In this document: positions 39,135-43,936 of the stretch, piece after piece | Numbering within the stretch: position 1 is the first letter of the stretch | Layout of the letters: each line of letters begins with the position of its first letter | Assembly: GCF_016865445.1 (NCBI RefSeq) | Contig: NZ_AP024412.1 | Span: 248,001 to 312,000 of the forward strand | DNA: 64,000 bases | Direction: 5' to 3' | Source: Mariniplasma anaerobium | GTDB lineage: Bacteria > Bacillota_I > Bacilli_A > Acholeplasmatales > Acholeplasmataceae | The notes under the pieces: generated by a model | What the model was told of the DNA's origin: nothing | The model's database searches: none | What the model saw: the letters and a program-made list of their open reading frames with translations, nothing else | Made by a program: the position numbers and the translations under genes

Positions 39135-40478
39135 ATGAAAAAAGTTAGAGTAAGATATGCACCTAGTCCAACAGGACTTCTTCATATCGGAAACGCAAGA
39201 AGTGCATTATTTAATTATCTATACGCACGTCATTTTGGCGGCGATTTTATTGTAAGAATAGAAGATACTGATGTTTTAAGAAATGTTGAAGGTGGAGAAG
39301 CATCTCAATTAAACTATCTTAATTGGTTAGGTTTAGAGTGGAATGAGTCACCTGATAAAGGTGGAGATTTTGGCCCTTATCGCCAATTAGAACGCCTTGA
39401 TTTATATACAAAATATGCTAATGAATTACTAGAAAAAGGATTAGCATATAAGGATTTTAGAGAAGATAGTGAAACATATGCAATTCGTTTTAAAGTTCCA
39501 AGTGATGTGACTTATGCATTTGATGACATTGTGCGCGGGACTTTAAAATTTGAGAGCAAGGATGTTGAAGATTGGATTATCATGAAAGATAATGGAATTC
39601 CGACATATAACTTTGCGGTTGTTATTGACGATCATTTTATGGAAATCACACACGTTTTACGTGGTGAAGAACACATAACAAATACACCTAAACAATTAAT
39701 GATATATGAAGCATTTAATTGGCAAGCACCACTTTTTGGACATATGACTATTATCGTCAATGAAGAAAAGAAAAAACTATCAAAAAGAGATAAAAATGTT
39801 ATTCAATTTATTTCTGAGTATGAAAAGATAGGATATCTTCCAGAAGCAATGTTTAATTTTATTTCTCTATTGGGATGGTCTCCACAAGGCAACAAAGAAA
39901 TCTTGAGTAAGGAAAACATTATTAAACAATTTGATCCCAAAAGATTATCAAAAGCACCTGCTATGTTTGATAAAGACAAATTAGCATTTATAAATAGTAA
40001 ATATATTAAAAAGTTGACTATTGAAGCATTAGCTGAAAAATCTAAAATCTTCTTAGAAGAAGCAAACATTGAAATTAAATCTCAAAAATGGTTAGAACTA
40101 TTGGTTACAGTTTTTCAAGATCGCATGAACTATATTGGAGAAATAGCTGAATTGTATCATGCATTTTTCCAACATGAATTTAAGCTTTCTGATGAAACAT
40201 TCCAATTCTTGAAAGAAAATAATAGTTTATCTTTACTAGAATCATTTCATAATCATTTAAATGTATCTGATTTTCAAGTTGAATCAATTGAAGATGCAAT
40301 CAAACAATCTGGTTTCGATACTGAAACTAAAGGCAAAGAATTATTTATGGGACTAAGAATAGCAACTACAGGAGATATGCATGGTCCTAGTCTTCCAGCG
40401 TCTCTAGCTTTATTAGGAAAAGAAAAAGTTATGAAGAGATTAGCACATACAATCGATAAACTTAGAGGTGAATCATGA
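39135..40478 (+). CDS. gltX: Glutamyl-tRNA synthetase
   Basis: Charges tRNA-Glu (and probably tRNA-Gln for later amidation). The 447 residues have the HIGH-type RYAPSPTGLLHIGNARSALFNYLYA, the RGEEHITNTPKQ region and the KLSKR motif in EKKKLSKRDKN. It is somewhat shorter than Bacillus GltX. No zinc-binding cysteine cluster is seen. AAGGATGGG precedes the ATG. It overlaps the following lipoprotein gene by four bases. In Bacillus gltX is followed by cysE-cysS; here two genes stand between gltX and cysS. Confidence 0.95.
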   Translation: MKKVRVRYAPSPTGLLHIGNARSALFNYLYARHFGGDFIVRIEDTDVLRNVEGGEASQLNYLNWLGLEWNESPDKGGDFGPYRQLERLDLYTKYANELLEKGLAYKDFREDSETYAIRFKVPSDVTYAFDDIVRGTLKFESKDVEDWIIMKDNGIPTYNFAVVIDDHFMEITHVLRGEEHITNTPKQLMIYEAFNWQAPLFGHMTIIVNEEKKKLSKRDKNVIQFISEYEKIGYLPEAMFNFISLLGWSPQGNKEILSKENIIKQFDPKRLSKAPAMFDKDKLAFINSKYIKKLTIEALAEKSKIFLEEANIEIKSQKWLELLVTVFQDRMNYIGEIAELYHAFFQHEFKLSDETFQFLKENNSLSLLESFHNHLNVSDFQVESIEDAIKQSGFDTETKGKELFMGLRIATTGDMHGPSLPASLALLGKEKVMKRLAHTIDKLRGES

Positions 40479-42001
40479 AAAAAATAAAAGTTTTATTTAT
40501 AGCAATTGCAGTTTTATTAGTATTAGCAGCTTGCGGCAGCAAAACTACAGCAACCGCAGAATTTATTGATGTAGTTGTTGATCAAACAAGTATTTCATTT
40601 AATGTAGAAATCACTGATTTAGATAATGAAATCACTGGATCAACTGTTGTTTATCTTTATAATACTGATGGAAACATTAGAAATCAAAAAACAATAGAAA
40701 CAGAAGATGATTTATTAGATATTTATTTTTATGGTCTTGAAACAGAAACTGACTTTACTGTAAAAGTTATTGCAACTGTAGATAGAGATGCATTAGAAAT
40801 AGGTGTGTATGAATTCAAAACGTTAACTTCAGAAGTAATTGTTATAAATACAGTTGAAGAATTTAATGCAATGATTGATAATAGAAATGGGAATTTCGAA
40901 TTAGGTCAAGACATTGATTTTACAGATGTAGAATATATATCAGTATTTAATACATCAAGTCTTGCATTTGGTGGTGTATTTGATGGTAATGGATTTGCAT
41001 TGAAAAATATCAATTTTGAAAGAATTTCAATGTATACTGGTGTATTTGGATATGTTTCATCAGGAATTATTAAAGATACAACATTTGAAAATGTAACAAT
41101 TGGCACACTAGCAGAACCATTAACAACAACGACTTCTACAAGAGTAGGTATTGTTGCAGGTTATGTGACAAGTCAAACAGCTGAATTTGAAAATATTGTC
41201 ATTAAAGATTCAACAATTGCTTTCTCAACATCTTCAACAATTCAAGCTTATATTGGGGCTGTTGCTGGAGAATTCAAAGGTACAATGAGTGGTGTTGAAA
41301 TAACGAATACAAATATTAGCGTTACATCGACTTCATTTGGAACAATGAAAATTGGTGGTTCAGTTGCTTTAATAGGTGCAGATGCTGACATCAGTGAAGT
41401 TATCAGTGATGCAAACATTGATTTTAGTATCGCAGGAACAAACATAAGAGATGATGATTCATCTACAATGATAGGTGGTATTGTAGCACAACATGTTACT
41501 GGTGCTAATATCTCAGATGTTATTTATACAGGTGATATCAACGTTTCTCTAGATTATAATACACTTCCTGATACAGATAGAGGTATTTATACTTTATTTG
41601 TTGGTGGATTAATTGGTAAAGCAAATGATAGCATTTCAAATGCATATTTTAGTGGATCGATTTATGTGGACCATGAAAAAAATGAAAATGAAGCAGATGT
41701 TAGAAAACAATTTAGAATTGGTGGACTTATTGGATTTTATGAATCAAACAAACCTTCTAATCAAATCGCAAGACTTGATGGAGGAGAAATAGTACTTACA
41801 ATTTCTGATGATGTTTTACTAGACGCATCACAAATATTTGGGTTCAATCGTTTTGGAGTTGCTAGTGATAAAGGTGTTAATGGAACAGAGAATCTTTCTA
41901 TTAACGGTGTGACTCAAGTTCCTGAAGTTGGTATTAATAAGATAGATGACTTAGAAGCTTATTTCACAAGTCAATGGATTTTAGATAGTTTAACTGATTA
42001 A
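40475..42001 (+). CDS. Surface lipoprotein with GLUG-like beta-helix repeats
   Basis: A 508-residue exported lipoprotein. The signal peptide ends in LVLAAC with the lipidated cysteine at 20. Residues about 28-120 look like a fibronectin type III-like domain. From about 135 to 440 are irregular repeats of the form GGxxG...I.(D/N)..F.(G/N)(V/I), such as GVFGYVSSGIIKDTTFENV and GGLIGKANDSISNAYFSGSI, typical of GLUG-motif right-handed beta-helices. Its ATG overlaps the gltX stop (ATGA), an odd pairing. The function is unknown; adhesion or polymer binding is possible. Confidence 0.8.
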   Translation: MKKIKVLFIAIAVLLVLAACGSKTTATAEFIDVVVDQTSISFNVEITDLDNEITGSTVVYLYNTDGNIRNQKTIETEDDLLDIYFYGLETETDFTVKVIATVDRDALEIGVYEFKTLTSEVIVINTVEEFNAMIDNRNGNFELGQDIDFTDVEYISVFNTSSLAFGGVFDGNGFALKNINFERISMYTGVFGYVSSGIIKDTTFENVTIGTLAEPLTTTTSTRVGIVAGYVTSQTAEFENIVIKDSTIAFSTSSTIQAYIGAVAGEFKGTMSGVEITNTNISVTSTSFGTMKIGGSVALIGADADISEVISDANIDFSIAGTNIRDDDSSTMIGGIVAQHVTGANISDVIYTGDINVSLDYNTLPDTDRGIYTLFVGGLIGKANDSISNAYFSGSIYVDHEKNENEADVRKQFRIGGLIGFYESNKPSNQIARLDGGEIVLTISDDVLLDASQIFGFNRFGVASDKGVNGTENLSINGVTQVPEVGINKIDDLEAYFTSQWILDSLTD

Positions 42002-42006
42002 TAATT

Positions 42007-42034
42007 TACGGCATTTCGGTGCCGTATTTTTTTT
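42007..42034 (+). terminator. Intrinsic terminator after the lipoprotein gene
   Basis: TACGGCA (42007-42013), loop TTTCGG, TGCCGTA (42020-42026), then eight Ts. Confidence 0.95.
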
Positions 42035-42041
42035 ATCATCA

Positions 42042-42050
42042 TGTTATAAT
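42042..42050 (+). promoter_or_regulatory. Extended -10 promoter of the DUF2779 gene
   Basis: TGTTATAAT with TATAAT at 42045-42050; no -35 match. Confidence 0.6.
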
Positions 42051-42070
42051 AGAGACTGGAGGGTAAGTCC

Positions 42071-43900
42071 ATGTTAATTTCAAAAACAAGATTTATTAAT
42101 TATATAAGATGCGATAGATATCCTGCATTAGATGAAATCCATAGAGAAAAGAACAAGGCAGTTGTTTCTTTTTCTGAGCAAGATGATTTAAGTGACTTAA
42201 TGAGCAAAGAGAACGAAGCTAAAATAAGTGTTTTACTCGAGTCTATGATTGATGAGCATAATGAAGATATTTTAGTTAAAACAAATCCGCAAATGGAAAC
42301 TATGCTTAAATATTATAATGAAATCGAAATGATTAGTGGTCGTATTATAGAGCGTAAATTTAAAGGCGATACCATTTATGCACTTGATACATTTGATCAA
42401 AAAAGATTTGAGTACGAATTAGAGGGCTATAGATTTTATTGCTTTCTAGATGGTTATCAAGAAGATAAAGATACGATTCGTATTTTTGAAGTAAAATCAA
42501 CTACATCAAAGAAGTTTTTAGATATGACATTTAAATTAGATGATCAAAGACTAAGTGTTTTTGAATACAGTCCAGAATCTATATTAATGTTAAGAGAAGA
42601 TTTAGGTCTAGAAGTTAATGAAGATTATCATAAAAAATTAAAAAAACTAAGAAATAGATTATCAAAAGAAGGTAGATATTTCTACGATATCGCCTATCAA
42701 AGATATGTTTTAGAACACACGTTGAAAACTGATAAAAATGTAAAATATTATTTAGGTGTTTTAAATAGTAAATATGTACATCAAGGTTTAGTAGATGACC
42801 AAAATAAGCCGATTTATAGTGATGATTTAATTACTTTTATTGATGTCACTGAATTTACAAAAAGTATGATGTCTATTATAGAAAAAGATCAAAAGATTGT
42901 CATGGATAGATTAGATGAAATGAATGCCAATCCTGTAGATTTAGGTCCTCATTGTCAAAGAAAAGATTCTAGAGAGTGTATATTTTATCCGATTTGTTAT
43001 AAAAATATTCCAGCTAAAAACTCAATATTCACATATATTGATGGGCATCATGGATTTAAAGATGAGCTTGGTGAAAAGCATGACAGATTTGATTTAATCA
43101 ATCAAGGATATTTAACCGCGTTTGATGTTCCATATAATTGGTTAAATAGAGAAAAAAATAAAGTACAAAGACAAGTTATGGATTCGAAAATAGCTTTTAT
43201 GGAAAACCATAAAATCAAAGCTGCTATAGAATCTTTAAAATATCCGATTTATCATCTTGATTTTGAAACTTTCCCTTGTCCTCTTCCTAGATTTAAAGGA
43301 GAAACACCTTATACACAATCTTTATTCCAATATTCAATTCATATAGAACACAGCCCTGGTGTTTGTCATAAAGATCATGACAATTATGGGTTTATTGCTA
43401 AAACACATGATGATTTAAGAAGAGAATTAGTTGAGACTATGATTGATATTATTAAAGATGATGGTGGATCAATTATGGTTTACAATCAATCATTTGAACA
43501 AACCAGATTAAAAGAGATGGCAAAATTCTTTCCAGAGCATCAAGAAAGACTATTAGATATGGTGGATCGATTAGTTGATTTAATGGATTTTGTTAAAGGT
43601 AACAAGAAATTTTTTAAGAGTTTAGGATTTGATGACCAACAAGCTGATGGATTTTGTTATTACCATAATGATTTAAATGGTTCATTTTCTATTAAAAAAG
43701 TATTACCTGTATTTAGTCATTTAAAATATGATGGTATGCCTATTGGAAATGGAACTGATGCGCTTGTCGCATATGCTAATTTCCCATTTATGGAGAAAAA
43801 AGAGTTTGAACAAACCTATCAAGATTTATTAGAATATTGTAAACAAGACACATGGGCAATGGTAGAAATACTTGATGCTTTAAGAAAGCAAGTCAATTGA
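42071..43900 (+). CDS. DUF2779 protein: Cas4-like Fe-S nuclease fused to a DEDD-type exonuclease domain
   Basis: A 609-residue protein of two parts. The N-terminal part (about 1-320) looks like a PD-(D/E)xK Cas4/RecB-type nuclease: D127 in FLDGYQ, E140 and K142 in IFEVKS, and four cysteines placed like an Fe-S cluster (C14, C295, C303, C309). The C-terminal part (about 380-609, DUF2779) has D397 and E399 in YHLDFETF, NQSFEQTRL, and YCKQDTWAMVEIL, which fit a DnaQ-like DEDD exonuclease. GGAGGG precedes the ATG. It is monocistronic. The substrate and pathway are unknown; a repair or nucleic-acid processing role is inferred. Confidence 0.8.
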   Translation: MLISKTRFINYIRCDRYPALDEIHREKNKAVVSFSEQDDLSDLMSKENEAKISVLLESMIDEHNEDILVKTNPQMETMLKYYNEIEMISGRIIERKFKGDTIYALDTFDQKRFEYELEGYRFYCFLDGYQEDKDTIRIFEVKSTTSKKFLDMTFKLDDQRLSVFEYSPESILMLREDLGLEVNEDYHKKLKKLRNRLSKEGRYFYDIAYQRYVLEHTLKTDKNVKYYLGVLNSKYVHQGLVDDQNKPIYSDDLITFIDVTEFTKSMMSIIEKDQKIVMDRLDEMNANPVDLGPHCQRKDSRECIFYPICYKNIPAKNSIFTYIDGHHGFKDELGEKHDRFDLINQGYLTAFDVPYNWLNREKNKVQRQVMDSKIAFMENHKIKAAIESLKYPIYHLDFETFPCPLPRFKGETPYTQSLFQYSIHIEHSPGVCHKDHDNYGFIAKTHDDLRRELVETMIDIIKDDGGSIMVYNQSFEQTRLKEMAKFFPEHQERLLDMVDRLVDLMDFVKGNKKFFKSLGFDDQQADGFCYYHNDLNGSFSIKKVLPVFSHLKYDGMPIGNGTDALVAYANFPFMEKKEFEQTYQDLLEYCKQDTWAMVEILDALRKQVN

Positions 43901-43903
43901 TAA

Positions 43904-43936
43904 AAACCGCCCTTATTAAAGGGTGGTTTATTCTTT
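43904..43936 (+). terminator. Intrinsic terminator after the DUF2779 gene
   Basis: AAACCGCCCTT (43904-43914), loop ATTA, AAGGGTGGTTT (43919-43929), then ATTCTTTT. The T run is weak. Confidence 0.75.

Follow-up and report, generated by a model that had tools for sequence, protein, structure and literature searches.

DUF2779, a Cas4-like nuclease joined to a 3′–5′ exonuclease-fold domain, as a possible stand-in for AddAB nuclease functions

What is a Cas4-like nuclease doing in a genome region without CRISPR genes, and why is it joined in one chain to a second nuclease domain? The question is raised by one gene in a 64,000-nucleotide stretch of DNA from the wall-less bacterium Mariniplasma anaerobium (contig NZ_AP024412.1, positions 248,001 to 312,000 of the forward strand), which we call the window. 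An earlier note had described the product as a stand-alone fusion of a Cas4-like Fe-S nuclease with an apparently complete DEDD exonuclease, and had left repair and defence as equal options. Our analysis supports the core of that description, namely a Cas4-like nuclease fused to a 3′–5′ exonuclease-fold domain, with a probable metal cluster and no CRISPR locus. The protein belongs to a known family with predicted activities, DUF2779, and its architecture is not new. The reading that we prefer, with a probability of roughly 0.4, is that DUF2779 proteins are housekeeping cytosolic DNA-end-processing nucleases that stand in for the nuclease functions of AddAB.

The open reading frame (Table 1) is a real gene: the strength of its PF11074 match, together with 579 related stretches across genome contigs, argues against a chance ORF. 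DUF2779 is the single domain that a Pfam scan finds in it. On sequence features the gene looks like its own transcription unit, because TATAAT and GGAGGG elements precede the ATG and terminator-like hairpins stand on both sides; the region holds four terminator-like sites, compared with a mean of 0.6 in shuffled sequence. No −35 box was found ahead of the TATAAT, and the promoter scan did not list that site.

Table 1. Features of the DUF2779 gene and protein, in window coordinates
Feature	Coordinates	Strand	Evidence or remark
DUF2779 protein, 609 aa: Cas4-like PD-(D/E)xK nuclease and 3′–5′ exonuclease-fold domain	42071..43900	+	ATG start, TGA stop
N-terminal PD-(D/E)xK domain, aa 1–320	42071..43030	+	AlphaFold2 pLDDT 91.2 and structural alignment
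Catalytic core D127...E140-x-K142	42449..42496	+	invariant, 78/78
Cys14, putative cluster ligand 1	42110..42112	+	77/78
C295-x7-C303-x5-C309, putative cluster ligands 2–4	42953..42997	+	77/78
C-terminal exonuclease-fold domain, aa 390–609	43238..43897	+	VIA-align 2, best 8g99_A
PF11074 (DUF2779) match, aa 394–540	43250..43690	+	E 9.6e-39, 133 bits, gathering cut-off 23.3
Exonuclease motif I, D397-F-E399	43259..43267	+	78/78
Exonuclease motif II, N472-x3-E476, Glu for Asp	43484..43498	+	E476 78/78, N472 77/78
Exonuclease motif III, Y589-x3-D593	43835..43849	+	78/78
Terminator-like hairpin upstream of the gene, with 8 T	42007..42026	+	
TATAAT (42045–42050) and GGAGGG (42058–42063) before the ATG	42045..42063	+	by eye
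Terminator-like hairpin downstream of the gene	43904..43929	+	

Structure prediction, which the earlier note had proposed as a check, returned a PD-(D/E)xK fold at the N-terminus and a PolB exonuclease-type fold at the C-terminus. With the window protein and 77 relatives aligned, AlphaFold2 modelled the whole chain at pLDDT 92.6 and pTM 0.87; the N-terminal part was also modelled alone. In structural alignment (VIA-align 2), the N-terminal model matched Cas4 4ic1 (Z 9.8, rmsd 3.9, 164 aligned, aa 1–315), MGME1 (Z 9.6, rmsd 4.7, 164 aligned), RecE 3h4r (Z 9.5, rmsd 3.7, 181 aligned), lambda exonuclease (Z 8.5, rmsd 4.0, 169 aligned) and AddB 4cej_B (Z 8.0, rmsd 5.3, 216 aligned, aa 1–317). It shares the fold, too, with eukaryotic Exo5 (Z 8.1, rmsd 4.3, 165 aligned), an Fe-S PD-(D/E)xK single-strand exonuclease that to our knowledge has no second nuclease domain. 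These Z values are middling, and rank 1 is a DinG at Z 9.9, tied. The best match of the C-terminal domain was the exonuclease-domain region of a PolB (8g99_A, Z 15.6, rmsd 2.9, 176 aligned). Foldseek alone gave nothing at E ≤ 0.001 for either model, and a PDB sequence search with the window protein and its profile found nothing. The models thus predict a Cas4/AddB/RecE-type fold followed by a family-B polymerase 3′–5′ exonuclease fold with Glu in motif II.

The window protein and its 77 relatives make up alignment A2, in which D127, E140, K142, D397, E399, E476, Y589 and D593 are invariant. The candidate ligands C14, C295, C303 and C309, four of nine cysteines in the protein, sit at the positions that had been claimed, and 77 of the 78 rows keep the complete set. 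The sole exception, L109 (L, G, f and g numbers are our handles for loci, genomes and groups of genomes), reads F, L, Y and D there and has lost all four; it is an orthologue because it occupies the same location, with cysS and mrnC downstream. The claim of a complete DEDD site stands only in part. On an RNase H-like exonuclease fold, the D-x-E motif I (D397, E399) and the Y-x3-D motif III (Y589, D593) of DEDDy enzymes are present in 78/78, but motif II carries Glu476 instead of Asp, also in 78/78.

The fusion itself had been implied to be novel, and it is not. In the portion of Majorek et al. (2014; PMC3985635) available to us, DUF2779 is family F.17 of a 3′–5′ exonuclease clade, its activity presumed, and it co-occurs with a DUF83/PD-(D/E)XK partner; the window protein is a member, with the same layout of PD-(D/E)XK/DUF83 and RNase H-like exonuclease. 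By the same portion, TM0106/COG2251 proteins (TIGR03491) likewise place a RecB/Cas4-like nuclease before an RNase H-like exonuclease, but the window protein has no TIGR03491 match at E ≤ 1 and no AAA domains. To the UU173 family (NF045869) it is a relative rather than a member (64.4 bits, E 9.5e-18, with 225 bits required). Like Cas4 (e.g. SSO0001, 4ic1), it has the PD-(D/E)xK fold with D and E-x-K residues and a one-plus-three layout of four cysteines; unlike Cas4, it has an extra exonuclease domain, no cas genes and no match of its own to PF01930 (Cas4, DUF83). A Pfam scan of 78 N-terminal domains (alignment A3) gave only scattered weak matches to unrelated families, and PF01930 is not among the 25 families shown. 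Judged by profile matches, homology to Cas4 runs through intermediates, because the shorter DUF2779 proteins L199 and L200 match PF01930 above cut-off (2.8e-11 and 3.9e-9) and the window protein does not. TIGR03491 is matched by L053 (6.8e-10), L199 (1.2e-10) and L200. The AddB nuclease domain shares the fold and the cysteine order (one N-terminal, three C-terminal) and is complementary in distribution; the window protein differs in lacking the helicase-like part and any detectable profile similarity and in having a second nuclease domain. It has no match to AddB (TIGR02773) at E ≤ 1, and profile kinship with AddB was rejected after hhalign gave a probability of 2.2 against four AddB-like nuclease domains. 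PHROGs yielded a single weak hit (E 0.0078, aa 109–151), in a family labelled “CRISPR/Cas system associated”, and a scan of viral contigs gave one pattern match and zero relatives. In the DUF2779 literature that we searched, largely listings, we found no experimental study except one Mycoplasma bovis mutant, and we did not meet the cysteine/SUF pattern, the loss series or the AddA complementarity described below.

The catalytic and cysteine sites are lost in different combinations across the family. From 140 whole-genome loci, 18 without a match to the A2 profile (mostly f7 and f12) were left out, giving 122, and nine f6 loci were kept out of the SUF table, the SUF search having covered other genomes, giving 113; these, 26 sequences from alignment A1 and the window protein form a survey of 140 rows, in which G400 counts twice. 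Four cysteines are found in 76 rows, 60 of which have the PD core. Another 25 rows (f6, f18, f19) have a Cys3His arrangement, with the PD core in 25/25, while 35 are cysteine-less and 4 have a partial set. Among the four-cysteine rows x7/x5 is the most frequent spacing (36 of 76); the short homologues L053, L199 and L200 have C-x2-C-x5-C. All 15 rows from f16 keep the four cysteines and have lost the PD residues, f7 has lost both, and the phytoplasma-like g8 rows have lost every cysteine and, a split gene in G033 excepted, keep the PD core. Two pattern calls need care: L216, scored PD-intact, is a false positive, and L241 (G033) was scored PD-lost from its C-terminal ORF alone, its N-terminal half being a separate ORF. 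Acidic residues of the exonuclease are retained in the survey rows inspected. Since they remain where the cysteines and PD residues vanish, the exonuclease is, from the aligned sequences, the part that selection has held longest.

Among 61 near relatives, a count that includes the window's genome, 43 have DUF2779, as do 262 of 392 genomes drawn from the phylum, against 0 of 14 control genomes; 261 of the 262 pass the PF11074 cut-off, and G018 (E 5.4e-4) is counted with them. AddA (TIGR02785, E ≤ 1e-40) occurs in 167 of the 392. This cut-off was set after a first look at 80 genomes, PcrA/UvrD-like helicases matching near 1e-20; in that look, AddA was present in 14 of 50 genomes with DUF2779 versus 28 of 30 without it. 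The full draw gave 216 genomes with DUF2779 only, 121 with AddA only, 46 with both and 9 with neither (Fisher 1.9e-50, a value that ignores phylogeny). Of the 46 double genomes, 29 belong to f16, where the sampled DUF2779 proteins lack the PD core. Six AddA regions were inspected: an adjacent PDDEXK_1 AddB-like protein is present in four (G007, G050, G124, G155), a 581-aa ORF with no NCBIfam match adjoins AddA in G020, and the G031 contig carries an AddA-like ORF only. It is mainly this complementary distribution that favors the repair option of the earlier note.

Could phylogeny and genome reduction alone have produced the complementarity, with no functional exchange? We find this doubtful, although the two traits cluster strongly within families and every Mycoplasmatales-type family sampled has DUF2779 and lacks AddA. 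At the genus level, where the two enzymes occur in 88 and 98 of 155 genera with an overlap of 36 counted by hand, the Fisher value is still 9.8e-12. Mutual exclusion also appears inside single families, with 5 DUF2779-only, 4 AddA-only and 0 double genomes in f10 and 5, 13 and 0 in f13. Genome shrinkage is not the cause in f10, because its DUF2779-only genomes are the larger ones (1.7–2.0 Mb versus 1.0–1.4 Mb). A RecJ control (TIGR00644, E ≤ 1e-30, 80 genomes) was flat: RecJ was found in 7 genomes, five of them the DUF2779-bearing f10 genomes (all five there), and was missing in 73/80 whichever enzyme was present. Thus, repair genes do not generally replace one another in this way. Moreover, just 9 of 392 genomes do without either enzyme.

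If DUF2779 stands in for AddAB, the parts of the protein suggest a scheme for the cluster and its chemistry, the two nuclease activities, their substrate and polarity, and the helicase partner. A separate helicase, with PcrA/UvrD or RecD2 as candidates, would expose or deliver a DNA end. The Cas4/AddB-type N-terminal nuclease would then take in the end or single strand and cut or thread one strand, while a [4Fe-4S] cluster on the four cysteines would pin the C-terminal lid of this nuclease to its N-terminus, and the PolB-like site would trim the 3′ strand. Together, DUF2779 and the helicase would resect or destroy broken or linear DNA, as AddAB does in other Bacilli. In favor of this reading, both catalytic sites are invariant (78/78), and the folds that carry them are predicted with confidence and resemble those of known DNA exonucleases. 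It is also favored by a transposon mutant of M. bovis in the DUF2779 gene Mbov_0804, which, in the text available to us (PMC7373297), grew normally in axenic medium and poorly with host cells and is listed alongside holA, recD and dnaB mutants. Against it stand the 46 genomes that hold both enzymes, the f16 proteins, which lack the PD site and coexist with AddA, and f7, where AddA and the PD site are both missing; in these two groups, therefore, the PD nuclease is excluded as the essential function that is shared.

The f16 proteins are about 500 aa long (e.g. L202–L209, L245–L251) and carry a putative cluster site on a dead nuclease domain.

The distribution of RecA bears on which AddAB function would be shared. 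RecA matches were found in 47 of 50 sampled genomes and not in G011, G024 or G031, and in G411, G196 and G365 RecA is in broken pieces; the DUF2779 genes of these genomes are open. Strict RecA-dependent recombination as the sole role was rejected on this ground. An enzyme that persists in genomes with no RecA match or a broken RecA does not have to serve recombination, and DNA-end clearance or trimming is a more likely shared function than RecA loading.

The same persistence without RecA would suit an enzyme of RNA processing or decay, in which the exonuclease would act mainly on RNA 3′ ends with the Cas4-like domain as an accessory. In f7 the exonuclease residues remain although cysteines and PD site are both gone, in f16 they have outlived the PD site, and Foldseek matches also include the RNA deadenylases Pop2/CAF1. 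Gene neighborhood points the same way in Acholeplasmatales. In the window, the neighbors are what we in part presume to be gltX, a putative lipoprotein gene, cysS, an RNase III-domain gene (mrnC, Mini-III), a P-type ATPase gene, rlmB and a sigma-70 region 2 gene, among which gltX, cysS, mrnC and rlmB serve translation or RNA, and the order gltX–lipoprotein–DUF2779–cysS–mrnC is kept within the order (cysS at 33, mrnC at 32 and gltX at 30 of 77 loci). However, that context is conserved within Acholeplasmatales alone, giving way elsewhere to recX, deoA, NUDIX, tig, rlmN and prkC, and the DUF2779 gene is flanked by its own terminator-like hairpins. Structurally, the exonuclease domain comes closest to the exonuclease-domain region of a DNA polymerase, and a role on RNA leaves the AddA complementarity unexplained. 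We judge it unlikely.

As a functional clue, gene context was set aside as weak, the neighbors changing between orders; by eye, 42 other loci have recX-like (12), trigger-factor-like (11), NUDIX-like (10) and rlmN-like (10) neighbors. The 508-aa putative lipoprotein (40475–42001), which lies between gltX and DUF2779, has no Pfam match and is kept at 30 of 77 loci.

Whichever substrate is right, the four cysteines of the window protein probably bind an Fe-S cluster, as their pattern relative to the SUF system suggests. With SufBD (PF01458) as the marker, SUF was present in 63 of 64 genomes picked for four-cysteine proteins, in 19 of the 64 that made up the other set (the window's own genome among the 19) and in 56 of 61 relatives. 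Four-cysteine rows are SUF-positive in 75 of 76 cases, as against 18 positive and 46 negative among the 64 rows without four cysteines. The exonuclease-domain tree requires at least 4 changes of the four-cysteine state and 10 of SUF; in Acholeplasmatales two losses of the cysteines are seen, one in g8 and one in G031, and neither has SUF. Only two independent pairs lie on starred branches, too few for a sign test to reach 0.05, so with few independent losses the SUF correlation is supportive rather than decisive. Exceptions run both ways: G370 has four cysteines and no SufBD, as does G034 (an assembly 67% complete, outside the 140-row table), and four f12 genomes are SUF-positive yet cysteine-less. 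NifU-like proteins are reported in phytoplasmas in the accessible part of PMC3322544, so that loss of SufBD does not equal loss of all Fe-S assembly.

A structural zinc pin in place of the cluster would fit G370, and it would fit the C-C-C-H site of f6, f18 and f19, which is retained both with SUF (13 rows) and without it (12 rows). We nevertheless hold zinc to be an improbable metal in the window's branch, where the two lineages without SufBD are also those in which the four cysteines were lost. In addition, the C-x2-C-x5-C spacing of the short homologues recurs in AddB-like proteins here (those of G050, G124 and G155), to which AddB, an Fe-S protein, is related. The Cys3His branch itself perhaps binds a different metal, such as zinc, and on its residue pattern an exchange of Fe-S for zinc is possible there; L037, L057 and L189, from Spiroplasma/Mycoides-type relatives, are examples with a C-x-H end, with or without SUF. 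The AddA neighbor in G007, an AddB-like protein (L252, 7205–9613), lacks C-x2-C-x5-C although the genome is SUF-positive. G031 (L244/L109, L254; Acholeplasmataceae, 93% complete) unusually combines a cysteine-less DUF2779 with an AddA-like helicase and has neither SufBD nor a RecA match.

AddAB- and RecBCD-type enzymes also destroy phage DNA, a parallel that would suit an anti-phage or anti-plasmid role for DUF2779. Although Cas4-family domains are found in defence systems, according to the text at hand of PMC5704561, such a role is very improbable and does not merit equal rank with repair: DUF2779 usually occurs once per genome, keeps its gene order within Acholeplasmatales, has housekeeping neighbors, is carried by 262 of 392 genomes, has no PADLOC match in the window protein or in its neighbors (0/9), and has no defence genes recognized by eye at the 42 other loci. 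The earlier remark that no CRISPR genes are near holds true. Besides the PADLOC result, a search for cas4 (PF01930) in the window's genome found none even at E ≤ 10, the same search being positive in 9 of 14 control genomes, and the cas1/cas2 context of CAS-Cas4 is absent at the window locus.

More broadly, Mollicutes and allied Bacilli that lack AddAB may have in DUF2779 their missing end-processing nuclease, a non-homologous protein that took over the nuclease functions of AddAB and whose cofactor site was remodelled along with host metal metabolism; we offer this extension tentatively. If it is true, two nuclease sites in one chain and a separate helicase do the work of AddA plus AddB. The cofactor site would then form a series, from four cysteines with SUF, through Cys3His independent of SUF, to nothing in phytoplasmas and mycoplasmas, and mycoplasmas would have lost the PD site with the exonuclease left. 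DUF2779 is a concrete, widely conserved exonuclease candidate of the kind raised by Rocha et al. (2005; PMC1193525), as far as the available part of that paper goes. Its natural series of Fe-S-type, Cys3His and absent sites, and of proteins with two or one predicted active nucleases, provides a way to probe the role of the cluster in Cas4/AddB-type enzymes.

Finally, the gene itself varies. It is mostly single copy, with two copies or fragments in G400 (L237, L238), G027 and G036. In phytoplasma-like G033 (L241) it is split into PD-domain and exonuclease-domain ORFs of 241 and 391 aa, with the break at about residue 220 in window-protein numbering; either the gene is decaying or the two ORFs encode working subunits.
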